Shown here piece by piece: positions 2,531 to 33,834 of a stretch of DNA of 64,000 nucleotides (its first letter is position 1; the number at the start of each line of letters is the position of its first letter). The notes under the pieces were generated by a model. The model ran no database searches. It had not been told where the DNA came from and saw only the letters and a list, made by a program, of their open reading frames with translations. Source of the stretch: Gemmataceae bacterium (GTDB lineage: Bacteria > Planctomycetota > Planctomycetia > Gemmatales > Gemmataceae); NCBI GenBank assembly GCA_003136315.1, contig PLDW01000518.1:55443-119442 (forward strand). The letters are read 5' to 3'. Position numbers and translations under genes: made by a program.

Positions 2531-2644
2531 ATTTCGTTAGCACAGAATTATGAATATATAACAGATTGGCAGACAGTGTCAAGAAAATGGAGTTCAGCCG
2601 GGGAGAGGAAGGTCTGCGAGGTTATCGCTGGGCTGGCAGATTGA

Positions 2645-2693
2645 GTTCCCCGATAAATGTCACCATTTTCTCCCCGCTATTTGTCACCCTGAC
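2645..2693 (+). repeat. Terminal-repeat-like element A (forward)
   Basis: gttccccgataaatgtcaccattttctccccgctatttgtcaccctgac; inverted copies at 3552-3604 and 3721-3771. Confidence 0.8.
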
Positions 2694-3551
2694 AGACCTT
2701 CATTTTCAACGATTTTGTCAAATGGCAATTCAGAGATTGGATGGCGGCACTTCGCTCCCAGGGAGTGTCCTTCGACAAAACCTAGGGAGACGATGGGCGA
2801 TTTTTGACTGCTTGGAGAATGGTTACTTCTTGGAACACGCCTCGCATCCTGCGGCATGCATCAACGTGGCTCCGTCCAGTTGGGTGAACAACAGATAGTC
2901 GTGCCCATCCTGGGCTCGAATAAGCCGAATGGATTGATAGTGCTCCACCTGCTTTGGGGCAACGTCGAGGAACTCGGAGGAGGCGGAGTTCGGTGCGGCT
3001 GGGGGCAGGCGATTGGCTGCGAAGCCACCCACTATCAGGACCGAGACGATCACGGCCGTCGCGATTATTAATCGGGTCAATTGCATCTCCTTGAGAACCG
3101 TTTCGGGTAGCGAAGTGCTACGCCCGTCAACCGCGTCCCGCGGGAGATGGCCGTAGCTTCTATTGCCGTCTACTCTGAGGAGATTGAAAATATCTGTTGG
3201 AAGATGTGCCGAAATAAAAACTCAATAGAACAGACTTGCATCTCCACTGAGTTATTCCCAGAATTAATATCCGCGTGCTAGAAATTGTTGAGTAATAGCT
3301 CATTAGTTCTGGCTGCTGTTGAGCAGACGGTTCCGCTGCTTCATCCATTCAAACCGATCACAGAGCACAATCCGGCGAGCAGCCGTTCACGCGATGCCTA
3401 ATCCCGATCAAAATACCGTCTTGTACTATTAATGCCGATGATTTAAACTGTTAAGTGACTCGCTATTTGTCACTCTTTTTACCCTGGTAGTTGTCACTGC
3501 GCTTGAGTGACAGTCACCAAATCAAGGTCTTCGCTTCCTCCTGACGACCAA

Positions 3552-3604
3552 GGGTGACAAATAGCAGGGAAAAAAGACTGTCATTTATCGGGGAAATTAA
3601 CAAG
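3552..3604 (-). repeat. Terminal-repeat-like element B (inverted copy)
   Basis: gggtgacaaatagcagggaaaaaagactgtcatttatcggggaaattaacaag; reverse complement relation to element A. Confidence 0.8.
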
Positions 3605-3608
3605 AAGT

Positions 3609-3662
3609 GTTAATTTCCGCAGTAAATGTGACCATCTTCTCCTCACTATTTGTCACCCTGAC
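3609..3662 (+). repeat. Terminal-repeat-like element C (forward)
   Basis: gttaatttccgcagtaaatgtgaccatcttctcctcactatttgtcaccctgac. Confidence 0.8.
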
Positions 3663-3720
3663 GGCCCATACTGCCCAAAGGTTTGTCGAAGGGCAACGCC
3701 GAGAACGAAGTACCAACGGA

Positions 3721-3771
3721 GTGACAAATAGCAGGGAAAGAAAGGTGACATTTATCGGGGAAATTAACAAG
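3721..3771 (-). repeat. Terminal-repeat-like element D (inverted copy)
   Basis: gtgacaaatagcagggaaagaaaggtgacatttatcggggaaattaacaag; with C brackets a ~163 bp MITE-sized unit. Confidence 0.8.
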
Positions 3772-3921
3772 TTGGCTCGGTGCTCAGGTTTCATGGTAGC
3801 GCATCATAAGACCCCTTATCGGGCGAATGTTAATAATAGCTCTAAACCACCTGCCCTTCTGAGGTGGCCTGAAACATCGACAAGATTTGTCCCATCGAGT
3901 AAAACTGGAGTCAAATTATGT

Positions 3922-3950
3922 TTGACATATTAAAATATATTGCGTATCTT
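3922..3950 (+). promoter_or_regulatory. Sigma70-like promoter for the second VapBC pair
   Basis: TTGACA-N17-TATCTT in an AT-rich stretch, 34 bp upstream of the ATG at 3984. Confidence 0.5.
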
Positions 3951-3983
3951 TAAGAAAGTGTAACGAAATAAATAAAATGAAAA

Positions 3984-4286
3984 ATGTTAAAATCCTTTCA
4001 TGTACGAATTGCCAATGACGGGCGGGTGATGATACCAGCCACACTACGAAAGCGATTGGGCCTCCACCCTGGCGACACAGTCGTCATAGAGGAGGAAGAC
4101 AACTCGGCCAGGCTCTCGGGCTACGCCCAAGTGCTCCGGGAAGTGCAAACAGCATTCGCCCCTTACCGGGTATCCGGGCTAAACGTCGTGGACGAATTGA
4201 TCGCGGAGCGCCGCGCCGAAGCCGCGAAGGAAGACGCCGAACTGGACGAGTGGCTGGACGGACGAGGCCTATCGGGAAATGCGTAG
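3984..4286 (+). CDS. vapB: AbrB/MazE-type antitoxin (VapB-like)
   Basis: SFHVRIANDGRVMIPATLRKRLGLHPGDTVVIEEED; paralogous to 2258-2530. Confidence 0.85.
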   Translation: MLKSFHVRIANDGRVMIPATLRKRLGLHPGDTVVIEEEDNSARLSGYAQVLREVQTAFAPYRVSGLNVVDELIAERRAEAAKEDAELDEWLDGRGLSGNA

Positions 4287-21014: not shown

Positions 21015-21677
21015 TCACTCGTCAGTGGCGATTGCGTTGAATTCACCACGAAACCACGACCGCCCAAGCAGCTTTCTGAGTCGGTTCACCTGCCGGTTGT
21101 GACACCGTCCAAGGCGGCGGTGACTGCCACACGGGCATGGTTCTTTATTCGCGACACGTCGTCGAAGTGAAGTGAGATGAACGAACACGCGCGCGGCAGC
21201 CCGACTTGGTGCCCTGAACAGTGAGGCAAAGTATTGGAGTAAGCCGTCCCGGCCATGTTCGAGTTCGCCAAACGGCATCACACCGTGGGCCTCATGGTAG
21301 CTGTGGCCGAACAGATACGGGATGACGAGCCGATCGACGAAGCCGAGAAGTGTCGGCGCTGTCGCCAATTGGATCTGGATTTCCGTACGCGCCCCGAGGC
21401 AAAGCAGATCGCCTTCGAGTTTGTGAAAGGCGGGAGCGATTCGCCCGCCGGTTTCACGGACAGTCGGGATCCCCCGAGGAAACGTCGACTGGACCCGGAT
21501 TTCGATCGCGTAGCAATCCTCGACCGTACGCCCGTCGGGGCCTGTTGCCCGGAACGGAAGATCCCCGGCGAGAAGTAGATCGTCACCGGAATTCGGCATG
21601 ATCCGCAGCCCGGAGTGACGCAGCAGTAGGTCTTGCAACCGCCAGCGGGCAAAGCGGTCGGAGGCCGATTCAGCCAT
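21015..21677 (-). CDS. E2-like (UBC fold) CBASS-associated protein with C-terminal SEC-C zinc motif
   Basis: YAIEIRVQSTFPRGIPTVRETGGRI...HKLEGDLLCLGARTEI...FVDRLVIPYLFGHSYHEAHGVMPFGELEHGRDGLLQYF is E2-like; C-terminal CPCGSHRRLGRCH fits CxCx8CH. 8 bp overlap with the CD-NTase gene. Confidence 0.75.
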   Translation of the reverse strand: MAESASDRFARWRLQDLLLRHSGLRIMPNSGDDLLLAGDLPFRATGPDGRTVEDCYAIEIRVQSTFPRGIPTVRETGGRIAPAFHKLEGDLLCLGARTEIQIQLATAPTLLGFVDRLVIPYLFGHSYHEAHGVMPFGELEHGRDGLLQYFASLFRAPSRAAARVFVHLTSLRRRVANKEPCPCGSHRRLGRCHNRQVNRLRKLLGRSWFRGEFNAIATDE

Positions 21678-22833
21678 GTTGTCCCCAGGGCCTTGGGCCC
21701 GAAGGAATGATCAGTGGCGGTGCGGCCTTCAGGATCGTCGGGGCCGTGGTCACCGATCCTGATCCAAACTCCCGAAGTTCAGTCTGTGTCAGGTCAACAC
21801 GGAGGATAGCCCGCACTTCCCGACCAAGGGTCGGACTGCGGAGGAGCCCTGGGAGTTTTGCAACATCGGCCTTCACAGCCGCGTACCAGGCCCAGAAATT
21901 CGTTTCGAGCCGGGCGTCTCGCGACCACTTGTCGGCGTAGTCCTCGCCCGGAGCTGCCGGGTTCGGAACGCGGGGACGTTCGCTCCGTACGAACGATGCC
22001 ATTCGCTCGACGATATTCACCAGAGCCGCGTAGATGTCGGGCTCGCCGTCATAGGCCCGTGCAGCAAGATTGGTAATGATCATCGAAATCGGTTGCAGGT
22101 CGGTATTATTTCGAAACATGACGTCGCGATGCCGTTTCAAAAACTGAATGCTCCGCTGGAGCGTTGTCTTCCACTCGTACGGGGGCACGTCTTCGATCGA
22201 GGCTTTTAGACGGCCTTCGAGCAGACTCCGAGATCGGCCCAAGGCTGCGCGTGACTCGAACCAATGGGCGAACCCGCGTGGGTTGCTGCTCGTCCATCGC
22301 TGCGAGAGGACTCGATAATCCGGATGTTTGCGGTCGGTGATCGCAATCGCGCGGCCGGCGAGGTCCTGGGGCACCCCAAATTCGGCCAGATGTCGGATGA
22401 CCACCGCGTCCTCCGGGACACAGGGCAGCGTGTCGAGATGGAAGTTGACATCGTCAGCGTACACAAGCCGCCAGCACCGATTGTGCTCTTCAACAGGGGC
22501 CAGCATGTTGTAGGCTTTGGCGTAGGCTCGAATCTCTTCGCCATACAGCCGCTTCAGCTCCACCTGTGTGAGTGTCCCTTTCGTCAACCCCCGCAGCAGG
22601 CAAACATCGTCGAGATCGTACTCGTCATTCTCGTTTAGAGGCCGGTTCACAGTCCCGTACCGGAACGAGCCTTGCGGCCGCACGTCAGGGTTGAAGGCTC
22701 GCACGAGGGAATTCGGGCGATGTAGCCACTCGCCGAGCGAGCGGTGCCTGGCTGCCGCCTTCTCGTAGAGCGATTTTGGCACGTCGAAGTGTTCGATGAT
22801 GGCCGTCAAGAGACGGCTCAGCTCAGGGTTCAT
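21670..22833 (-). CDS. CD-NTase (CBASS cyclic oligonucleotide synthase)
   Basis: PQGSFRYGTVNRPLNENDEYDLDDVCLL (GSxxxGT and DxD) plus FHLDTLPCVPED (third acid); C-terminus ...PRPWGQHG ends in Gly. Confidence 0.92.
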   Translation of the reverse strand: MNPELSRLLTAIIEHFDVPKSLYEKAAARHRSLGEWLHRPNSLVRAFNPDVRPQGSFRYGTVNRPLNENDEYDLDDVCLLRGLTKGTLTQVELKRLYGEEIRAYAKAYNMLAPVEEHNRCWRLVYADDVNFHLDTLPCVPEDAVVIRHLAEFGVPQDLAGRAIAITDRKHPDYRVLSQRWTSSNPRGFAHWFESRAALGRSRSLLEGRLKASIEDVPPYEWKTTLQRSIQFLKRHRDVMFRNNTDLQPISMIITNLAARAYDGEPDIYAALVNIVERMASFVRSERPRVPNPAAPGEDYADKWSRDARLETNFWAWYAAVKADVAKLPGLLRSPTLGREVRAILRVDLTQTELREFGSGSVTTAPTILKAAPPLIIPSGPRPWGQHG

Positions 22834-22835
22834 GA

Positions 22836-24023
22836 TCAATCTCCGTTCGGGATAGACAGGGCGTGAATGAAGCCACCGCGAGCGTTCACCTGGTCGTACA
22901 CATGCCACGGCGTATCGGCCTTCGGCATCCGAATGCGGCCGAGTTCGACGGCCATCGCAGCTGACACCGCCGGAAAGATGTGGATGGGGGTGATTTGACC
23001 GTGGACCGCCTTGATGCGGTCCAACTGCGTGCGGAGGACGGCCCGAAACCGACCGAGCTGCTCCCGGCTCTTGGTCATGTCGTTGTGCGGTTGATCAACG
23101 GTGACCTCCCAGACACTCACAGTTGGGCCGAGCACGGCTTCAATCCGGTCGGGGGTGACCGTCGCGCTGAGGGCCAGGACGAGAGCCGCCGGCCCGTCCG
23201 TGGTCGCCGGTTGTCGTACGATGAACTCCGGGGTCACGCGGGCTACCGGCCAGCTCCATGATGGTGGCTCGCGGTGGCGCTGGTACACGTCCGCCGGCGT
23301 GATGTCGCCGAGAAGCGTGCCGAGCAGAACGAGCAGCGGTTGCGGGGCGAGTGCGAACACGGACAAGTGCTCGATCTCGGCCGACGACAACCGCTCCCGC
23401 ACCCTGCGGCTAAAGTGCGACCGCAGGTGAGTGGCTTCCATTTGCCAGAACTCGTCGCTCCGGTCCTGTGTCGGGCAGTCCAGCGAACCGAGGCTGATGG
23501 GCGTCGCCGAGGCCGGATACCGTAACGGGAACATGGCGCTGGCCGCGTCCGTCATCAGCCGCGGGGAATTGTGTTCCCCGATGTTCGCGCCGTAAAGCAG
23601 GACGTGACTGCGAAGCTCGGCATTGATGCCCGTGACGATCTCGATGCGAAGTTCGTGTCGCGCCTTCATCTCCTGCAACACCTGAGCGGCGTACCGCCCG
23701 CCGTCCGGAGCGCGATCAATTGTTAAGTGGCAGATGGGGCAGACGAGGATCAGGTTGTCGACCGAGTTGATGTCGTCCGTAGCAACGCCCGCGTTCCCCC
23801 TCGGCCCGTCGCAGCTGAACGAATAAATGTGCGCCCGCTGGGCGACGTTCACCGGCTCCTTGGTTACGGGGGAACGCCACAGGGGCAAATTGCACCCAGC
23901 AAACTCGCACCGCCCGCCGGCGCGCCCCCAGAGCATCGCGGTCATGTGAGGCGAAATGTAACGGGTCACTTCGCGCGGCTCGTCGGAGCTGTTGACAGTA
24001 GGTGGTGTCGTTTTGGGGGCCAT
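22836..24023 (-). CDS. HNH endonuclease-SAVED domain CBASS effector (Cap5-like)
   Basis: HNH: CEFAGCNLPLW...NVAQRAHIYSFSCDGPRGN...DNLILVCPICHLTID; SAVED-like C-terminus ...HIFPAVSAAMAVELGRIRMPKADTPWHVYDQ. Start re-assigned to MAPKTTPP at 24023. Confidence 0.9.
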   Translation of the reverse strand: MAPKTTPPTVNSSDEPREVTRYISPHMTAMLWGRAGGRCEFAGCNLPLWRSPVTKEPVNVAQRAHIYSFSCDGPRGNAGVATDDINSVDNLILVCPICHLTIDRAPDGGRYAAQVLQEMKARHELRIEIVTGINAELRSHVLLYGANIGEHNSPRLMTDAASAMFPLRYPASATPISLGSLDCPTQDRSDEFWQMEATHLRSHFSRRVRERLSSAEIEHLSVFALAPQPLLVLLGTLLGDITPADVYQRHREPPSWSWPVARVTPEFIVRQPATTDGPAALVLALSATVTPDRIEAVLGPTVSVWEVTVDQPHNDMTKSREQLGRFRAVLRTQLDRIKAVHGQITPIHIFPAVSAAMAVELGRIRMPKADTPWHVYDQVNARGGFIHALSIPNGD

Positions 24024-24080
24024 TTTTGTCTTTGCCGGACGGGTGATGCAGGATACTTCAGTGAGCCGCAGGCGGTTTGC

Positions 24081-24195
24081 CGTGGGTCTGAAGAAGTAAT
24101 CGCTCGCCCGGGAAGCGACCGGTAACATCACCCGAGATTTTTTTTCAGCAGCCCGTCGGCCAGCGGGGACAGGTTCTGCTCGGTTTGAGTGGGAC
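24081..24195 (-). repeat. Degenerate direct copy of the helicase-gene 3' end (copy 1)
   Basis: CGTGGGTCTGAAG..TAATCGCTCG.CCGGGAAGCGACCGGTAACATCACCCGAGATTTTTTTTCAGC... matches 26636-26775 with an internal deletion. Confidence 0.9.
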
Positions 24196-24242: not shown

Positions 24243-24698
24243 TCATCGCCGCCAAGCTGAGAGCCACAAACATAGCCGAGCCCACCAACTTAGTAATTTC
24301 TCATCGCGTACAGTCGAAATCGATGTCGGTTGTGGTGGGGTTGTCGTCGCCGCTGGAGTGTCGCCACTCGCCGAGGTGGTGATGTCCCGCTGACGCACCG
24401 CCGCGACTTGCGAGTTGTTCCAGTGCCCAGCCTCAAGGACTCGCCCGCGGTCAATCACGTAATGTGAACGGCACGGCAAAGTCCAACTTCCCACCGACGG
24501 CCACACGGAAACGGTCTCGCCGTCGTACGTCATCTTCCAACCGGTCGGCGAGAACGGGGTCACGACCTCCTCACCGCACCCACAGCAGCAACTGTGGGTG
24601 GCGGTGCCGAACTCCATCGACACGTAGAGAACTCCCGGCTCAAGACGGTCCGGAAAGTTACACACGAATCGGTGTTCGAGGCGGTGGCAGCGGATCAC
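24243..24698 (-). CDS. DUF6527-like cysteine-rich protein
   Basis: VIRCHRLEHRFVCNFPDRLEPGVLYVSMEFGTATHSCCCGCGEEVVTPFSPTGWKMTYDGETVSVWPSVGSWTLPCRSHYVI; GTG start overlaps the stop of the ThiF gene (GTGA). Confidence 0.75.
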   Translation of the reverse strand: MIRCHRLEHRFVCNFPDRLEPGVLYVSMEFGTATHSCCCGCGEEVVTPFSPTGWKMTYDGETVSVWPSVGSWTLPCRSHYVIDRGRVLEAGHWNNSQVAAVRQRDITTSASGDTPAATTTPPQPTSISTVRDEKLLSWWARLCLWLSAWRR

Positions 24699-25870
24699 GC
24701 CCGGTCTCCGTTTTCGAGTTGGTTGCCGTCGGTCGTATAGGTGCAATGATGTTCCCGTTCGAGGTCGCGATAGAACCCCCGAATCTTCTTCCACTTGATG
24801 ACGGCCAGCACGGCGTTGAGTGCGTTTAGGTCGGCGACCTGGATGTTGGAGGAGTAAACGTCGTCCGCCCCGCCGCCGGCGAAGGAGATGCGGCCTTGGT
24901 GAACGTGGTCGCGCTTTTCGGGCGTGCTGGCCGTCACCCGGAGGATGCCGCCGAGCGAACCGTCGACCAGCTCCAACCCCATGCCCGAATCGATGAACGG
25001 GACCCCGAGCGCCTCAAGCTTCCCGACGATCACTCGCTTCGCGTCGCCCGCGCCCAGGCACAGAAAGGCAAAGGTGGTTCCGTCGAGCAGGGGCAGATTG
25101 TCCGCGGTGAGCCGGGTCTTGTGCGCAACGATCCCGCGGTGCATCTTCGAATAAATCCCCTTGAGATAATCGACTTTCGACGGTGCGTCTCGAAGCTCCT
25201 CGATCGACGGCGCACCGGGCGCGCGAAATGCGTTGTGCTGGAGGAACTCGTCCGCGTCGAAGAGGCGGATCTCCCGCACCGGTGCCTTCGCCACGAAGTC
25301 AAGCAGGTACGAGCCGGTCCCCCCTAGGCCGATGATGCTCACGATCTCACGGGTCAGCAGATCACTCAGCGCGCCGATCCCCACCCTGCCGGACGCGGTC
25401 TCGATGTAGTTAAAGACGCCGTCGTTTTCGTCTTCTGGTTCGCGGAACACTCGCGGCGTGGCATTGGGCTTCAACACCGCGGCCGGGCCGGAGAGGATGC
25501 CGGCGTATGTGGTCATCTTCTCGTGGTAGTCGAGATAATTCCGACCGGGCTTGGTCGAAAAGTGGTACTTCGCGGTCAAGCCGTGGCCGAGGTTGTGATC
25601 TCCCGCACCATCGCCGATGCCCGTGATTCGCTTGCCGTCGGCGTTGCACGGGAACTCCCCGTCGAACCACACCTGGTGCGTGTCGGGAGGCCGGGTCTGG
25701 TCTCTGGCCAAGGTGAGGCTTGAGATGAGCGTACCCGTCAGCACCTCTCGCTTCGCGTTGACGTAGGGCACCTCGCGCATCACCAGGAGCGAGCCCCGGA
25801 TCTGCACGAAGTAGCCCTCGTCACGAAGGCGCTTGAGATCGGCGTTACGACTGAGTAGTGCGTGTGACAT
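24695..25870 (-). CDS. ThiF/E1-like adenylyltransferase with N-terminal E2-like (DUF6791-type) region
   Basis: VSIIGLGGTGSYLLDFVAKAPVREIRLFDADEFLQHNAFRAPG is the E1/ThiF nucleotide-binding motif; ~190-aa N-terminal extension; 26 bp overlap with the multiubiquitin gene. Confidence 0.85.
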   Translation of the reverse strand: MSHALLSRNADLKRLRDEGYFVQIRGSLLVMREVPYVNAKREVLTGTLISSLTLARDQTRPPDTHQVWFDGEFPCNADGKRITGIGDGAGDHNLGHGLTAKYHFSTKPGRNYLDYHEKMTTYAGILSGPAAVLKPNATPRVFREPEDENDGVFNYIETASGRVGIGALSDLLTREIVSIIGLGGTGSYLLDFVAKAPVREIRLFDADEFLQHNAFRAPGAPSIEELRDAPSKVDYLKGIYSKMHRGIVAHKTRLTADNLPLLDGTTFAFLCLGAGDAKRVIVGKLEALGVPFIDSGMGLELVDGSLGGILRVTASTPEKRDHVHQGRISFAGGGADDVYSSNIQVADLNALNAVLAVIKWKKIRGFYRDLEREHHCTYTTDGNQLENGDRA

Positions 25871-26600
25871 TGAACACAGTTCCGTTCTTGACTTGGACTC
25901 TCCCGCCGGCCCCGAGCTCCCCCGACGGGGGCTTCGAAGCGGCGTGGCGGTATGAGATGGAAAAGACAACATCCGGGTTGTGCGCCCCGGGGAACGCCAA
26001 CTGCACGATCTGCTCGAACGTCACGTCCGGCCCAGTGACAGTCTTCGGTCGCGCGTTTACGATGATTTCGAAGGTCGGCCGAGGGGCCGTGAAGAATCGT
26101 TCGACGCCCGGCTTCGTCAGGTCGATCAGTTCGCAAGGTTCTACGAGGCGGTCTTCGCCCCCGCGCACCTCCAGGTACACGACCTGGTCGTCAGAGGGGT
26201 TCGCCAAAGTGCGGAGGGCCCTGCCGCTGATCGTTGGCTTGCCCCACCGCAACTCGTGGTCGTTTAAGGTGAGGTGGAAGTCGCGGTCGGAGCGGAACGT
26301 CACGAATCGCTCGGCCCCCTTCGCACGGAGGTCGAACGTCTCATCCAGGCGGATGTCTTCGAAGTCTCCGCTGGGAAGGATTGCGAAGAGACTAAATTCG
26401 TCGATCGGCGCAAGACCGGCAGCCGTCAGAATCTGGCGCCCCAAGGGAACCGGGACGGAGATGGTGACCGGGCGAAAGTTGAGGCTTTCGTCGCTCACGG
26501 CAATCCGGTACGACGCGGCGACGCGGACGGCGCGGCCCTCTCGCACCGCGGCGCCAATGTCTTCGGTGTCTCCGGGAGTTGTCGTTATGTTGTCGTTCAC
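25845..26600 (-). CDS. Multiubiquitin protein (three tandem beta-grasp Ubl domains)
   Basis: Three repeats: VSDESLNFRPVTISVPVPLGRQIL, LTLNDHELRWGKPTISGRALRTLA, and FEIIVNARPKTVTGPDVTFEQIVQLAFP...GTVFNVTRTTQS; matches the multiubiquitin family pattern as I recall it. Confidence 0.85.
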   Translation of the reverse strand: MNDNITTTPGDTEDIGAAVREGRAVRVAASYRIAVSDESLNFRPVTISVPVPLGRQILTAAGLAPIDEFSLFAILPSGDFEDIRLDETFDLRAKGAERFVTFRSDRDFHLTLNDHELRWGKPTISGRALRTLANPSDDQVVYLEVRGGEDRLVEPCELIDLTKPGVERFFTAPRPTFEIIVNARPKTVTGPDVTFEQIVQLAFPGAHNPDVVFSISYRHAASKPPSGELGAGGRVQVKNGTVFNVTRTTQS

Positions 26601-26635
26601 GAGGATCGTCCTTTCAGTTAGTCCCAGGCATTTCG

Positions 26636-26775
26636 CGTGGGTCTGAAGGACTAATCGCTCGACCGGGAAGCGACCGGTAACATCACCCGAGATTTTTTTT
26701 CAGCGGTCCGTCGGGCAGCGCGCCGCAGATGAAAAACGCAGGGCAGCGGGGACAGGTTCTGCTCAGCTTGAGCGG
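26636..26775 (-). repeat. Direct repeat covering the 3' end of the IrrE-UvrD gene (copy 2)
   Basis: Aligned by eye to 24081-24195. Confidence 0.9.
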
Positions 26776-29700
26776 GAAACGGCCGGCCTGCACCGCGTTC
26801 CCCATTTGGTCAATCGACGCGCGCCGGTTTGCAAGGACGCGAGCCGTCATCGCGACCGGTGTTATCACCGCGTCGCTCAGGTGAACCAGTTCGACCGCGC
26901 AGTCCGAGGAGTGGGTATGCGCCGCGATGACGAACGCCGCAGTCGCAAGGCTCTCGTCGTCCTTAGAGCCCTTGTGCCCGGTGTCGACCCGGCGCATCGT
27001 GATCTTCCCGCCGACACTTAGCACCTGGTCGGGCCGGATCACGATCTCGCCACCCGGGACCGGTAGGCGGAGGCACGGCACCTGGCGGACTTCTGCACCG
27101 ATCACGGTTCCCGCGTAGAAGTTCAGCAGTTGCATGGCGATTCGCTTGTACTCGTCTCCGTAGCCGTGGTCCACCAGACCGTGCTCAGCCCACACGGCGT
27201 CTAACGAAGCCTCCAGCTCCACGAGCGAAGGTTCTTTACCTCCTATCCCGTCAACGACCTTCTGAACCGCGACGTGCAACTGCATGAACCCGGTCTCCGT
27301 CCGACGGCCGCCCACGTCAAGGATGTGCGTGTACAGAAAGCGGCGCGGGCACCGCTCGTACAGGGCCAGTTGGTGATCGGTGAAAGCGAACGGCCCATCC
27401 ATCGTCAGCGGAACCGGCGAATCTTCTGGGCTCGGAGGTAGCACCTTCGTCGGCGTTACGTGGCGCATATCGATTCGGCTGCTCAAACGATCGATGAACG
27501 GCGACCGTGGGTGACTCGCGCTGTTCGACTTTTTCGTCTGAGAGTACATGACGAGTCGGTCGCGGGCTCTTGAGAGGGCGACGAAGAACAAGCACTCTTG
27601 TTCCTCGCTCAAGGCTTCTTTCACAGCATCGATTGCCTTGCCGGCAGCCCCGTCGATCAGTCCGTCGGGAGGAACAATCATGCCCGCAACTAAGGCGTTC
27701 GGCGAGCGTGGCAGACTCGCGTTGGTCAGGCCGGGGATGTGGACGGCCCGGAATTCGAGCCCCTTGCTCCCGTGCATCGTCATGAGCCGAACGGCATCAA
27801 TTCCTTGCGCGGCCGCGGGGAGCTGACGCAGGTCGCGTTCGTCGGAAAAAAGAACCAGACGACGAATTCTGGTGAGCAGGCGGGACAGCGGGAGCCCCTG
27901 TCCGTCGGATTGGCTTCGAACGAAATTCATGAACTGCCAGATCGCAATGCCGCGCGACCGCGCCCGAAGATCCTCGGCCGGGGCGATCTCGGCAGCGGCC
28001 CGCGTGCGGTCGAGTAGCACCGCGCAAAGGATGTCCCACGGATTCGCGTCCGACGTGAATCCGGCAAGTAGCTCGGCGATGCCCCGAAGCCCATCGAGCC
28101 CCGCCGGAGAAAGTGCCGTGAGGGTGCCGAGGGCCTCCACCCACTTCATCGGCTCGCAGTCGTCCTTTTTGAGATGCGAGAGCACAAGAGCGACATCGGC
28201 AAGCGGGACGGCGTGGGACTTCTGCGCCGCGACGCGCAGTAGCCCCATCGCCCTGCGATCAACGAGGATCGACAGCAGCGAGAGGAGATCCTTGATCTCG
28301 TCTCGCTCAAACAAGCTCCCGAGATAGAGAACCGGAACGCCGAGGCTCTCCAGCCCTTCGGTCAACCGCCCGAGCCGCTCGTTGCCAGCGCTCAAGATCG
28401 CTTGGTCGCGGTACGAGTATCCCTCCTTCTGCAGTTCCTCGATCGCTTCCGCGACCGCCGCGATTTCTTGGTCGCCAGTCTCGACCGACCGGTACTCGGG
28501 CCGCCGCCCGGCCGCGCCGCGGGCCGCCCGCAAGCCGATCTCGGTGCCGCGGACGCTCGGGATCTCCGCAGCAAAAGCGAGGTACGTGTCGACCACCTCC
28601 TCGACGCTTCGGTAATTCGTCGTCAGCCGCCCGCGCTTCGCCCCCGAGAAATCCTCACGGTCGAAGCGAACCATGTTGAACGCGGACGCCCCCCGGAACC
28701 GGTAGATGGATTGCTTGACGTCACCGACCGCCCAAAGATTGCGACCGTCCCCGGCGATGGCCTTCAGCAATCGCACACTGCTTCGGTTGACGTCCTGATA
28801 CTCGTCGACAAGGATGTGCTCGTAGCGCGCGGCCAGGTGCTCGCGGACGTCCTCTTGCTCTTCACACAGGCGGACCGGCAACGCCACGAGGTCGCCGAAG
28901 TCGATGTACCCTTTAGCCGCCTTCATTTTCTCGTAGGCCGCGAAAACGGTCGCCACTTCGAGGCTGCGCCCAGCGGCCTCGCGCGCTTCGGGAGTAGTGG
29001 CAGACGCGAGCATCGACTCCGCCAGGGTGCGGTATCCGACAGAGTCGATAACTTCGTCTCGGGCGCGCGAGATCGCGTCGAGGATGCTCTTGATCGAACC
29101 CGACGGATCCCGCAAGTCTTTGAAGTGTTCAAGGCCGAGTTTCGGGTACTCGTCCTCCAGGAACCCGATCGCGTCGGTCCGCTCAAGGAGCTTCGGGTTG
29201 CGTGGCAAGTCCAAGCGATCGTGGAAACGGCGGATGATATCGAGCCCGAAGCCGTGGAACGTGCCAATCCAGATGCTCGCCGCTGCCGCTCGGTGTTTGG
29301 CCCCGATTCTCTCCGAAAGCTCGCCGGCGGCCTTGTTGGAGAAGGTCAGAATGAGGATTTTCCCAGGCTCCACCCCCTTCGAGAGCAGGTAATCGACTCT
29401 GCCGACCAGCGTCTGCGTTTTCCCCGTCCCCGGCCCGGCCTCGAGCAGGTAAGCAAATCCCTCGTGCGTTGCCGCCGCTTCCTGGTCCGGCTTCAGCGGC
29501 TTGTTCTCAATTTCTTTGGGCGGGGGAATCTCGAACCGGGGAAGGAGGAGCGCGTCGAGGAGTTGCTGCGCGACAACCGCGTGTGGCGCTCCGAGCTTTG
29601 ACGCGATGGTGTCTGCTGAAACTCCGTCCTCAAGGTGGAGCGTTCGTACCCACGGCCTTGGTACCAAGAACTCTCGTGCAAACAGGTCCATCTGGACCTC

Positions 29701-30084
29701 GCGCCGTTGCCGCTGACTGTAGTCGACGACACGATCAACGCCGACGGGGACGGCCTCGGATGCCCTGAGCGGATCGCCATCCGACATCGCGTCCGCCTCG
29801 TCTTGACCGTCAAATTCAACGTGTCCGATCTCGTGAGCTACCAGAAACGCGCTGGCAAACTCGTCTCCCGTGTCCTCGTGGAGGATCAGGAGTGCGTCGG
29901 GATCGTAAACCGCTCGACCGCCGAAGAGGCGCACATCCCCCACCGAAACCCTCTCGACCGCAATCTCCCGTCTGGTCGCTTCCGCGCAGGCAAAGGCGTA
30001 CGGTTTCCACGGATCGTGGCCCGCCGCGACGGCGTTGACATGGAACCGCTCGGCGCACTGTCGGCTGATTTCAATAGAGTCCAT
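26683..30084 (-). CDS. ImmA/IrrE metallopeptidase-UvrD/Rep helicase-PD-(D/E)XK-like fusion
   Basis: HEIGHVEFD (HExxH); EAGPGTGKTQTLV; ILVDEYQDVN; NYRSVEEVV; TMHGSKGLEFRAVHIPGL; FVALSRARDRL; C-terminal YERCPRRF and CPRCPAFFIC. Confidence 0.93.
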   Translation of the reverse strand: MDSIEISRQCAERFHVNAVAAGHDPWKPYAFACAEATRREIAVERVSVGDVRLFGGRAVYDPDALLILHEDTGDEFASAFLVAHEIGHVEFDGQDEADAMSDGDPLRASEAVPVGVDRVVDYSQRQRREVQMDLFAREFLVPRPWVRTLHLEDGVSADTIASKLGAPHAVVAQQLLDALLLPRFEIPPPKEIENKPLKPDQEAAATHEGFAYLLEAGPGTGKTQTLVGRVDYLLSKGVEPGKILILTFSNKAAGELSERIGAKHRAAAASIWIGTFHGFGLDIIRRFHDRLDLPRNPKLLERTDAIGFLEDEYPKLGLEHFKDLRDPSGSIKSILDAISRARDEVIDSVGYRTLAESMLASATTPEAREAAGRSLEVATVFAAYEKMKAAKGYIDFGDLVALPVRLCEEQEDVREHLAARYEHILVDEYQDVNRSSVRLLKAIAGDGRNLWAVGDVKQSIYRFRGASAFNMVRFDREDFSGAKRGRLTTNYRSVEEVVDTYLAFAAEIPSVRGTEIGLRAARGAAGRRPEYRSVETGDQEIAAVAEAIEELQKEGYSYRDQAILSAGNERLGRLTEGLESLGVPVLYLGSLFERDEIKDLLSLLSILVDRRAMGLLRVAAQKSHAVPLADVALVLSHLKKDDCEPMKWVEALGTLTALSPAGLDGLRGIAELLAGFTSDANPWDILCAVLLDRTRAAAEIAPAEDLRARSRGIAIWQFMNFVRSQSDGQGLPLSRLLTRIRRLVLFSDERDLRQLPAAAQGIDAVRLMTMHGSKGLEFRAVHIPGLTNASLPRSPNALVAGMIVPPDGLIDGAAGKAIDAVKEALSEEQECLFFVALSRARDRLVMYSQTKKSNSASHPRSPFIDRLSSRIDMRHVTPTKVLPPSPEDSPVPLTMDGPFAFTDHQLALYERCPRRFLYTHILDVGGRRTETGFMQLHVAVQKVVDGIGGKEPSLVELEASLDAVWAEHGLVDHGYGDEYKRIAMQLLNFYAGTVIGAEVRQVPCLRLPVPGGEIVIRPDQVLSVGGKITMRRVDTGHKGSKDDESLATAAFVIAAHTHSSDCAVELVHLSDAVITPVAMTARVLANRRASIDQMGNAVQAGRFPLKLSRTCPRCPAFFICGALPDGPLKKNLG

Positions 30085-30673
30085 CGGCGTCGCAGTCCCG
30101 GAGGAGGAGTTGCCGTTGCTCGTCGGTCATTTCCGTGGCCAGAACAAGCTCTCGAAACGTCTTCTGACCCTGGTGCGATGGCTTCACGTCCGATTTGAAC
30201 GCGAGCGCCGCCAGTCCAGGTTGCGCCTGCACGAAATAGTCGCGAGCTGACTCGACGGACAAGCTGGTCGCATCGGCGAATCGCCTCGTGAAAGGCTCTG
30301 GAATGGACGTGGCCGTCACCAGGCCGTCCCGGAATGCCGTGAGAAACGAGCGCGGGACGTTCAGTGCTGCCGCCAGTTGCACGAAGGCTGCGCCCTTGCA
30401 ACGCACGAACGGATTCACGACCTCGTTGCTGGGCACCGCTTGTCGCTTGCAGCCGAGGAATTCTTGCCACGCCGCTTCGAGGCCCGGGTCCGCCACCGTA
30501 CCGCCGGCCGGTTTCCCCGGAGCATTCGCAAGACGGAGTTCTGACGACAGGTCGATTAGCTCCTCAGTGAGTTCCGGATACTGCCGAAGGTAGCGATCAA
30601 GCGTACTCCAGTCGTGAGTTGCCTCGACTGCGAACGCGTCAAGAATTGCCTCCGGATCGTGGGGGTTGCTCAT
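30071..30673 (-). CDS. Regulatory partner of the IrrE/helicase gene, hypothetical
   Basis: 200 aa; overlaps both neighbours (4 bp with the sigma gene, 14 bp with the helicase). Confidence 0.7.
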   Translation of the reverse strand: MSNPHDPEAILDAFAVEATHDWSTLDRYLRQYPELTEELIDLSSELRLANAPGKPAGGTVADPGLEAAWQEFLGCKRQAVPSNEVVNPFVRCKGAAFVQLAAALNVPRSFLTAFRDGLVTATSIPEPFTRRFADATSLSVESARDYFVQAQPGLAALAFKSDVKPSHQGQKTFRELVLATEMTDEQRQLLLRDCDADGLY

Positions 30674-31506
30674 ACGTCGTCCTCCTCTTTCAGGGCGTCC
30701 CGCAGTGTTTTAAACGCCCGATCACGCCTATTGCGCACTGTTTGCTCGACGCAACCAACGAGCTTGGCAATTGTAGTAACCCCTTCCTCCTGGGAGTCGA
30801 TCGGCACCTCTTGGAAGATCAGCTCGATGACCCGCCGCTGGTCGGGCGGCAGGGAATTAATCGCCGTGTGGAGTTTGGACCGGTAAAGGAAATCCACGCC
30901 TTCGTCATTCAGAGCGTTTCTCATCGCCGCCAGGGCCGATTCTATCTCCTCCGAGGCCTCCCCTGCATTGTCCGTGAAGTCCGTCGATTCGTAACGGGAC
31001 TCGTCCCGCCAGACCCGCTTTCGCGCAGTCGACCGAAGACGGGCGAGCGCGAAGTTAAAACGGCACTCGAAGCAATCGAGCCTGTCGTCGTATTCTCCGC
31101 CACGGTCTCCACAGAGCATCTCTTGGAACTTCTGGATGACGACTTCCTGGATTTCCTGTTCCCCCGACTTCTCGACAAGTTTCGCCGTGCCGGCCAGACG
31201 CCGAGCGGTCACAGGCACAGCCCGAAGTACTCGCTGGCGTAAAATCACGAACAGATCGTGAAGAGCGTCGTCGACCAAGCCAGGTCGACGGAAAAAGTAC
31301 AAAACACACTCAGACAGAACATAGTTCGGAGCGTCGACGTCCTCAATGCGGGAGCGTTCGATGAGTTCGTGTGTCGACAGCTCTAAAAGGGCTGTGAGCG
31401 CCGTTTCGACCTCGTTGGGGCGACAATACAGACCACCGTCAGGTAACCGCTTGCGGAGCGGTGCGACCGGCGGTTGTGTTCGTTCTCGGGCGACGTTCTG
31501 AGTCAT
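30670..31506 (-). CDS. Sigma-70 family (ECF-like) RNA polymerase sigma factor
   Basis: C-terminal region 4: LHTAINSLPPDQRRVIELIFQEVPIDSQEEGVTTIAKLVGCVEQTVRNRRDRAFKTLRDAL. Confidence 0.8.
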   Translation of the reverse strand: MTQNVARERTQPPVAPLRKRLPDGGLYCRPNEVETALTALLELSTHELIERSRIEDVDAPNYVLSECVLYFFRRPGLVDDALHDLFVILRQRVLRAVPVTARRLAGTAKLVEKSGEQEIQEVVIQKFQEMLCGDRGGEYDDRLDCFECRFNFALARLRSTARKRVWRDESRYESTDFTDNAGEASEEIESALAAMRNALNDEGVDFLYRSKLHTAINSLPPDQRRVIELIFQEVPIDSQEEGVTTIAKLVGCVEQTVRNRRDRAFKTLRDALKEEDDV

Positions 31507-31809
31507 GTTCTGCTCGCCGCCTCCCCACACACCTCGGGATCCAACAGTCGCAAGCGTGGAACGTCCTAACGTTGGCTGAACTGTTTGACGCGTCTTTTCG
31601 TCGCATTATGCAATTTGAGGTCGTGCGTGGTCGTCAGCCGGTGACCATTGCGGCCTATTCGCCGCATGCTCGATCACAAAGTGTTGCTATGATACTGAAC
31701 TCGATGCGCCAGCGATTGTCCCATGATTTTACCGCAACTGCACTCTGTCTTGCAGGGAAAAAACGAGCTCTGGGAAATCTAGTGGCCGATCGGAATGTGG
31801 AACCGGCAT

Positions 31810-32166: not shown

Positions 32167-32660
32167 ATGTCCACGCCATTCCCTCATCGCCGGCCCGTTC
32201 TCTTATCCTTCCGATCCGTTGAAACCGCCTTGATCGGCTCGCTCGTGATGGCCCTGGTAGCAATCTTCGCCCCTGGCGGCTCAACTCGCTGTGCTCGGGC
32301 CTTCGTTATTATACTCGGCGGTCTGTTCCTCAGCTATCTGGATCAGGAAGAAGTCTGGATCGTCGTCCAACGGAAATGATCCAGCTTCTGGTCGACACAC
32401 TCTCCCTCGCACCGGAGGACGAACTCTTCCCCCCCTTCACCTTGGCCTATAGCTGGGCCATCACCGCCCTTGCCGAGCAGACCGGCCCATGCTCCGCGAA
32501 ATCGCCACCCTCAAACGCACCTCTGTCTATGCCCTGATCGATACGCTCACCGCCAGGACGATCGGGTTCGAAGGGACGGAGACCTGGCGGGCGGTCTACG
32601 AGCAGTTGCTCGCCAAATGGAGCGTTCAAGATTATCGGTCCGTGGCCGTGGTCACAGGTG
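32167..32660 (+). pseudogene. Decayed tandem copy of the 32920 membrane protein
   Basis: LLSFRSVETALIGSLVMALVAIFAPGG...ILGGLFLSYLDQEE and LREIATLKRTSVYALIDTLTARTIGFEGTETWRAVYEQLLA align with 32920-33834. Confidence 0.85.
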
Positions 32661-32919
32661 TTCCAACCAGCATGCTGAGAAGCTGGGTCTTCCCCCGGCT
32701 TCTGATGCAAGGGCACCAACCAACCCAGATCGGGGCCAACCCAGTGATCAAAACAAAAAAGTGGAGATTGTGGCTCTGCGCTGTTAGTTGGAAACGAGAG
32801 GGGCCTTGGGTGACAACAGCTTCCGGAGTCCCCTCACAGGGCTCTGAAGTGGCAACAAGTGTCTTGCTGGTTGTGAGTTCCGGCTTGCCTGACACCCCCG
32901 GCCGTCATACCGTGCGGGC

Positions 32920-33834
32920 ATGGCGAGCCCACCCACCCTGCGACGCGCGATACTTTTCAGTTTCAAGTTTGTCGGCACCTCACTGATCGGGTCGCTGACA
33001 ATGACTCTTGTTTGCGTCTTCGCCGGCGCTCCCGCCCAGTTGGCCGTTCTGGGGGCATTAATCAGCATCCTCGGGGGGCTGTTCCTCAGCTACCTCGACC
33101 AGGACGAGGAACGAGACCGACGACGAAATGAGGTTCTTGAACGGCTAGCCGTGCCGCTCACCCTGGCTCCTGAGCACGACCTCTACACTCAATACCTCGC
33201 CTTCTGCAAAACGCTCACCGATCTGGCCAATCAGACTGACCCGCTTCTTCGCGAGATCGCAACGCTCAAACTCGCTTCTGTGAACTCGCAGATCGAGTCG
33301 TTAGCCCAGGGAACGGTCGTGTTCGCAGGAACCGAGACGTGGCGGGCAGTCTACGAAGTGCTCCTCGCCGGCACCGATCTCCGGGAATACCAGTCGGCGG
33401 CATGGGTCCGGAGCAAGGATTACTGGCAGGATGCTCCGGGACGGCAGAGCATGAAAGCCAACTTCGAGGCGGTCAATCGCGGAGTGCTGGTCGAGCGGAT
33501 CGTCATCCTCCGGGACGACCTGTGGCCGCGGGGCCAGATCCTGCCAACGGACGACATCCTTCCTTGGCTCGAAGAGCAGAACAACCACGGATTGGATATC
33601 ACTCTGGTGCGGGAGTCGGACCTGGCTTCCGAGCCGGACCTACTGGCCGACATCGGGGTGTATGGCGAACGAGCGTGCGGCACTCAAGAACTCGACGAGC
33701 GCTCTCGGACCGTCCGATTTATCCTGTATTTCGACCGGCAGGCCGTCCGCTTGGCCAAGGATCGGTGGCGGAGGCTCGCGATTTACGCCACCCCGCTCAG
33801 CACACTACTGGATCAGATCGACGATGATCGGTAG
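32920..33834 (+). CDS. Membrane-anchored protein of unknown function
   Basis: Two predicted N-terminal TM segments (SLIGSLTMTLVCVFAGAPAQLAVLGALISILGGLFLSYL) and a ~220-aa soluble domain. Confidence 0.75.
   Translation: MASPPTLRRAILFSFKFVGTSLIGSLTMTLVCVFAGAPAQLAVLGALISILGGLFLSYLDQDEERDRRRNEVLERLAVPLTLAPEHDLYTQYLAFCKTLTDLANQTDPLLREIATLKLASVNSQIESLAQGTVVFAGTETWRAVYEVLLAGTDLREYQSAAWVRSKDYWQDAPGRQSMKANFEAVNRGVLVERIVILRDDLWPRGQILPTDDILPWLEEQNNHGLDITLVRESDLASEPDLLADIGVYGERACGTQELDERSRTVRFILYFDRQAVRLAKDRWRRLAIYATPLSTLLDQIDDDR

Follow-up and report, generated by a model that had tools for sequence, protein, structure and literature searches.

CapH+CapP is an ssDNA-activated peptidase and repressor pair that is found at immune operons (PMC13373217). 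The Bub ubiquitin-like operons are often under the control of CapW, CapH+CapP, or CapK+CapS, all of which are DNA damage responsive, and 219 of 544 Bub operons have CapW or CapH+CapP; the trigger or phenotype of these operons is not shown in that study, which nowhere uses the term "helicase" (PMC13373217). In Deinococcus, DdrO is the substrate of the IrrE peptidase, and PprI is activated by ssDNA (PMC10904395). In the description of the polyUbl operons in row 6e of Iyer et al. 2006, neither "helicase" nor "sigma factor" appears in the text (PMC1779556). The window, which is the whole 64,000-nucleotide stretch of Gemmataceae DNA analyzed here, carries a three-gene cassette encoding a sigma-like protein, a helix-turn-helix (HTH) protein, and a helicase, upstream of a polyUbl-type operon. 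The cassette resembles CapH+CapP (Corbett laboratory) in that an IrrE-type peptidase and an HTH protein are encoded side by side, ahead of an immune or ubiquitin-like operon. However, the CapP peptidase is small and stands alone, whereas that of the cassette is fused to a UvrD motor and an Fe-S pseudo-nuclease; in addition, the cassette HTH protein is not a simple CapH, and the cassette further includes a sigma-like gene and private promoters. With PprI/IrrE-DdrO, the cassette shares an M78 peptidase and an HTH partner with a DdrO-like fold, whereas the Deinococcus system has no helicase or sigma-like gene and has other operon targets. The cassette is therefore best classed with the DNA-damage controllers, as a variant whose peptidase carries a fused motor and whose gene set includes an additional sigma-like factor.

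The central gene of the cassette (positions 26683 to 30084; features lie on the minus strand unless stated otherwise) encodes a protein of 1133 aa with Pfam matches to Peptidase_M78 at residues 63 to 175 (1e-10), UvrD at 197 to 476 (3e-61), and PDDEXK_1 at 905 to 1120 (6e-8), and the protease-helicase-nuclease fusion read from this open reading frame (ORF) in the first-pass annotation is borne out. The HEIGH metallopeptidase motif (residues 84 to 88, positions 29821 to 29835), from which an active-looking IrrE protease had been read, is intact, with H84, E85, G87, and H88 being invariant in the aligned relatives. Also invariant is E129 (29698 to 29700), which by its position in the M78 motif (Glu before FA..LLxP) is the third metal ligand of the peptidase; it lies within REVQMDLFAREFLLP, with EIEANLFAAELLMP as the counterpart in the stand-alone CapP-like IrrE protein of locus L083. 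The full set of UvrD motifs is likewise present and nearly invariant among the aligned relatives (Walker A, DEYQD, GDVKQ..RGA, TMHGSKGLEF, and VALSRARDRL). The AlphaFold2 model of the protein (pLDDT 86.8, pTM 0.85) aligns with UvrD at a Z score of 39.8, and the structures of AdnA, AddA, AddB, and RecB align with the model into the nuclease region. Helicase homologs, which are 34 to 83% identical, are encoded on both chromosomes and plasmids in Planctomycetota, Acidobacteriota, Pseudomonadota, Cyanobacteriota, and Verrucomicrobiota; this odd protein is real and conserved across five bacterial phyla. In L083, positions 2567 to 4075 encode a CapH-like HTH protein (113 aa) and the CapP-like IrrE protein (176 aa); a small ubiquitin-like/JAB-E1 operon diverges from this pair.

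Taken alone, the C-terminal domain matches PF12705 at 4.5e-9, above the cutoff, which assigns it to the RecB/AddB-type PD-(D/E)XK superfamily fold. Like AdnA/AdnB, AddA/AddB, and RecB, the protein joins a UvrD core to a RecB-type domain at its C terminus, in which the cysteines follow the AddB-type pattern: C912 (27349 to 27351) and the three cysteines of CPRCPAFFIC (C1111, C1114, and C1120; residues 1111 to 1120, positions 26725 to 26754), putative Fe-S ligands in a C..CxxCxxxxxC arrangement, are kept in 37 of 37 aligned relatives. Unlike those enzymes, the family has lost the D-x-K center and has an N-terminal peptidase, and the window protein is a single subunit encoded in a regulatory operon. 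The stretch in which the usual acid and lysine had been noted as replaced (residues 1029 to 1036, ..MRRVDTG; 26977 to 27000) was placed by alignments of the relatives and AddB-like proteins; a profile alignment to the intact AddB-like proteins of L007 and L077 sets (V/L)RDYKTG on MRRVDTG and IDRL on PDQV, with low hhalign probabilities, and supports this register. It is very improbable that an atypical active site keeps the domain active as a nuclease: His937 (36 of 37 relatives), Asp1019 (28 of 37), Lys1034 (8 of 37), and the TG (34 to 37 of 37) are retained, but the catalytic Asp position 1032 is never D or E in the 37 relatives and is R in 28 of them, the adjacent R1031 is invariant, the Lys position is D in the window protein, and the earlier Asp is missing in 9 relatives. 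No intact D/ExK was found elsewhere in the domain. Thus, the alignments indicate that loss of nuclease activity is very probably common to the whole family, in which the Fe-S site is probably retained for structure or DNA binding.

The genes for the sigma-like protein, the approximately 190-aa HTH protein, and the helicase lie in this order on one strand in 46 of 48 loci, the two exceptions being L017, which is truncated where its contig stops, and L009, which is rearranged. The cassette adjoins ubiquitin-like conjugation genes in 47 loci, and the downstream sets, some of which (e.g., L030 and L070) were assigned from annotation, synteny, or reading by eye, include a multi-ubiquitin gene with DUF6791-E1 and DUF6527, with another E1 form and DUF6527, or with E2 and ThiF; small proteins with JAB and ThiF; and JAB and E1 with Mre11-like and AAA ATPase genes. 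In the window, these are the gene for a multi-ubiquitin protein with three beta-grasp repeats (25845 to 26600; PF14452 over three stretches, 1.4e-60), that for an E1-like adenylyltransferase with an N-terminal DUF6791 (24695 to 25972; PF20590, 2e-56; ThiF, 4e-6; PRK06153, 695 bits), and that for a DUF6527 protein (24243 to 24794; PF20137, 1.7e-22). This is the polyUbl (6e/Bub) gene set of multi-ubiquitin, an E1-like protein (E1 with domain X or JAB), and a metal-binding Y protein (DUF6527); unlike row 6e (PMC1779556), the window has the cassette upstream. In L012, L017, L018, L005, and L074, the cassette or its ubiquitin-like genes are followed by genes for an Mre11/SbcD-like nuclease and an AAA ATPase. 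A second multi-ubiquitin/E1/DUF6527 operon without the helicase is present in the window's own genome (L089, contig C516), where a divergent gene reads like an ECF sigma factor; L078 is similar.

The nearly constant company of several subtypes of ubiquitin-like genes could mean that the helicase is a working part of the pathway, as a DNA-end processor, conjugation target, or E3-like recruiter, with the sigma-like and HTH proteins only setting the operon level. The addition of Mre11/SbcD-like and AAA ATPase genes in several loci would agree with this, as would the fact that CapH+CapP and other generic controllers occur at immune operons of many types (PMC13373217). However, this reading is unlikely, as the three-gene core is constant while the downstream modules vary, L018 keeps the cassette and its motif with only an exonuclease and an ATPase gene downstream and no ubiquitin-like gene, and the same promoter-like motif stands before a CBASS operon in two genomes. 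The cassette is probably, but by no means certainly, a controller that regulates the adjacent ubiquitin-like operon and, in the window's genome, the CBASS operon.

The sigma-like gene (30670 to 31530) is 286 aa long as an ORF, with the ATG at 31506 as the likely true start, as in L022, a planctomycete locus whose helicase is 83% identical to that of the window. Its product matches Sigma70_r4_2 (1.1e-6) and Sigma70_r4 (1.1e-5) in Pfam, the FliA profile (4e-5), and, below the cutoff of that model, the sigma70-ECF model TIGR02937 (2.5e-8, residues 127 to 280, from model position 32). A region 4 match was found in 25 of 25 relatives, and region 2 had no Pfam match in the window protein or these relatives. 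The HTH protein p200 (30071 to 30673, 200 aa), a homolog of which was found in 47 of 48 loci, has no Pfam, PADLOC, or NCBIfam match and no significant PDB match by sequence, and only its fold is informative. In the AlphaFold2 model (pLDDT 80.5), residues 85 to 151 form a lambda-repressor/XRE-type HTH, and such HTHs make up most of the top structural matches, which have modest VIA-align Z scores of 5 to 7 (NGO0477, 6.9; YdaS, 5.4; DdrO HTH, 5.3; SinR and 434 repressor, 5.1). These are DNA-binding folds, and no known anti-sigma family was matched.

Immediately downstream of the helicase gene, the motif TNCCG(G)-N16-CGAT(T/C) is present in 45 of 48 loci, spanning 27 bases in 44 loci and 28 in one, whereas the two test patterns occur in 0.3% and 1.0% of random 110-base stretches of the same loci. 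The motif is absent from L009, where no recognizable sigma gene was found, and L073 and L075 have the cassette with the most divergent sigma-like genes and no clear match at this site. In the window, this copy (P2, 26653 to 26680; TTACCGGT-N15-CGATT) precedes the multi-ubiquitin gene, P3 (24098 to 24125; 27 of 28 bases as in P2) precedes the CBASS operon, and P1 (30859 to 30886) lies within the sigma coding region about 185 nt before the HTH gene; 3 near-exact matches were found against 0.05 expected. An exact match to TTACCGG-N16-CGATTR occurs at four places in the 11.6-Mb genome, of which three are in the window. In 12 other genomes there are 23 sites, all on the cassette contig, one contig each, with the cassette spacing. 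P1 encodes the conserved YR..AI of the sigma-like protein, and its codons are CGG for 32 of 37 Arg, ATT for 34 of 39 Ile, and GCG for 33 of 34 Ala, compared with 19%, 39%, and 30% elsewhere; this choice is far from the background, which indicates that the DNA itself is constrained beyond the protein.

Judged from the sequence, a candidate for a dedicated two-part promoter of an ECF-like sigma factor is thus present. An operator for p200, or for the sigma-like protein in the role of an ordinary transcription factor, could also take the form TTACCGGT...CGATT. Palindromes are the binding sites of XRE-type proteins, and ACCGGT is palindromic; the lack of a Pfam region 2 in the sigma-like protein would also suit an operator. 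This alternative is nevertheless improbable, since the two half-sites are dissimilar and separated by a constant 16-base gap, which is the −35/−10 geometry, the variants TACCGA, TACCGC, and TTCCGG disrupt the palindrome in several groups, and the ECF model aligned over residues 127 to 280.

The promoter reading extends to a second operon of the window, a type II short-form CBASS at 21015 to 24131, which is joined to the ubiquitin-like operon in both the window and L022. It encodes a Cap5-like SAVED-HNH effector (22836 to 24131; PF18145, 3.6e-48; PADLOC, 1.8e-139), a CD-NTase cyclase (21670 to 22908; PADLOC, 2e-111), and an E2-like protein (21015 to 21677; PADLOC E2, 1.4e-55). These are the components of the known short form, from which the operon differs in having the cassette's promoter-like motif, as found in these two genomes only (P3 is also present in L022, at 14911). 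The true start of the SAVED-HNH gene is downstream of P3. At about 24044, the window reads ATCACCCGTCCGG where the L022 SAVED gene starts with ATGGCCCGCCCGG, and by this comparison the window start codon may be elsewhere (an ATG at about 24023) or lost.

An inverted repeat follows CGATT at P2, in which the bases after the motif pair with the multi-ubiquitin ribosome-binding site (hairpin, 26608 to 26651; AGGA, 26609 to 26612), the far arm covering the site. MAFFT with RNAalifold over all leaders gave no structure, because the arm spacing varies, and arm-swap permutations and one subgroup were used instead. The arms of the same leader pair at a mean of −8.6 kcal/mol versus −5.6 for swapped arms (z, −8.1; 0 of 20000 permutations), a difference that kinship inflates somewhat. 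Among the 11 A8 relatives, both sides have changed in 4 of 9 pairs of the outer stem, and the covariation score is 0.368, compared with 0.190 for shuffled and 0.145 for the best slid alignments, kinship somewhat inflating such tests as well. The predicted unpairedness of the ribosome site is 0.21 in read-through transcripts, 0.42 in shuffled leaders, and 0.46 for a start 7 nt after CGATT, a position assumed from the usual promoter geometry. A similar stem folds in the window's P3 leader, the hairpin being clear at P2, and no start-dependent opening was predicted for the P3 leader of L022. The only Rfam match, which was subthreshold and on the opposite strand, was taken as chance.

It had been proposed that DNA sensing by the helicase is coupled to proteolysis. 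This idea fits the active-looking protease and motor, the lost nuclease chemistry, the kept cysteines, and the DdrO/SinR-like HTH neighbor, and CapH+CapP and PprI-DdrO are experimental precedents for ssDNA-activated peptidases (PMC13373217, PMC10904395). The first-pass annotation considered the protein alone and overlooked its setting, where the sigma-like gene, the leader hairpin, the private promoters, and the neighboring ubiquitin-like and CBASS operons together point to a controller cassette. The best reading is a controller of the CapH+CapP kind with a peptidase that is fused to a DNA motor and would free a dedicated sigma factor, and the trio probably switches on the private promoter of the ubiquitin-like genes upon DNA damage. 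The sigma-like protein with RNA polymerase would recognize TTACCGG-N16-CGATT and would be silenced by p200, either through anti-sigma activity or through occupation of the promoter. The helicase would move along damaged or phage-attacked DNA, which the Fe-S pseudo-nuclease would hold without cutting, and the engagement of ssDNA would activate the fused peptidase to cleave p200. The freed sigma would transcribe the ubiquitin-like genes from P2, CBASS from P3, and, as feedback, the p200 and helicase genes from P1. The hairpin would keep the ribosome site closed in read-through transcripts, whereas a start at P2 would leave out the 5′ arm and allow translation. A more far-reaching version is a proteolytic sigma switch, in which the motor-borne IrrE peptidase destroys a sigma-holding HTH protein upon DNA damage, a private regulon of two or three promoters activates ubiquitin-like conjugation and, with it, CBASS, and read-through messages are silenced by a hairpin that depends on the start site; this version is more tentative and should be regarded as possible rather than probable. 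From the cassette, the signal (processed DNA), the switching mechanism (proteolysis and a private sigma factor), and the exact promoters of a presumed immune response can be predicted; if true, this would explain why the nuclease-like Fe-S domain persists after the loss of its chemistry, and one controller would have recruited a second defense, CBASS, by promoter copying.

The cassette was found in 1 of 392 Planctomycetota genomes and in 3 of 385 from the class to which L018 belongs, a sparse distribution as expected of a mobile, defense-like module. Phage records gave no match at 1e-60, and viral contigs gave mostly generic helicases, apart from a single partial match of 45% on a 5-kb contig (L102). 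Next to the cassette copy on a Klebsiella plasmid is a set of Tn7-like transposition genes (L011, 15956 to 21393). In several related Acinetobacter plasmids (H91 to H96), the helicase match ends at about 76 to 81% of its length, which suggests that the gene is decaying there. Upstream of the window's cassette, two adjacent plus-strand ORFs (32489 to 32986 and 32920 to 33834) have the stretch LREIATLK..GTETWRAVYE in common and are perhaps a partial duplication.
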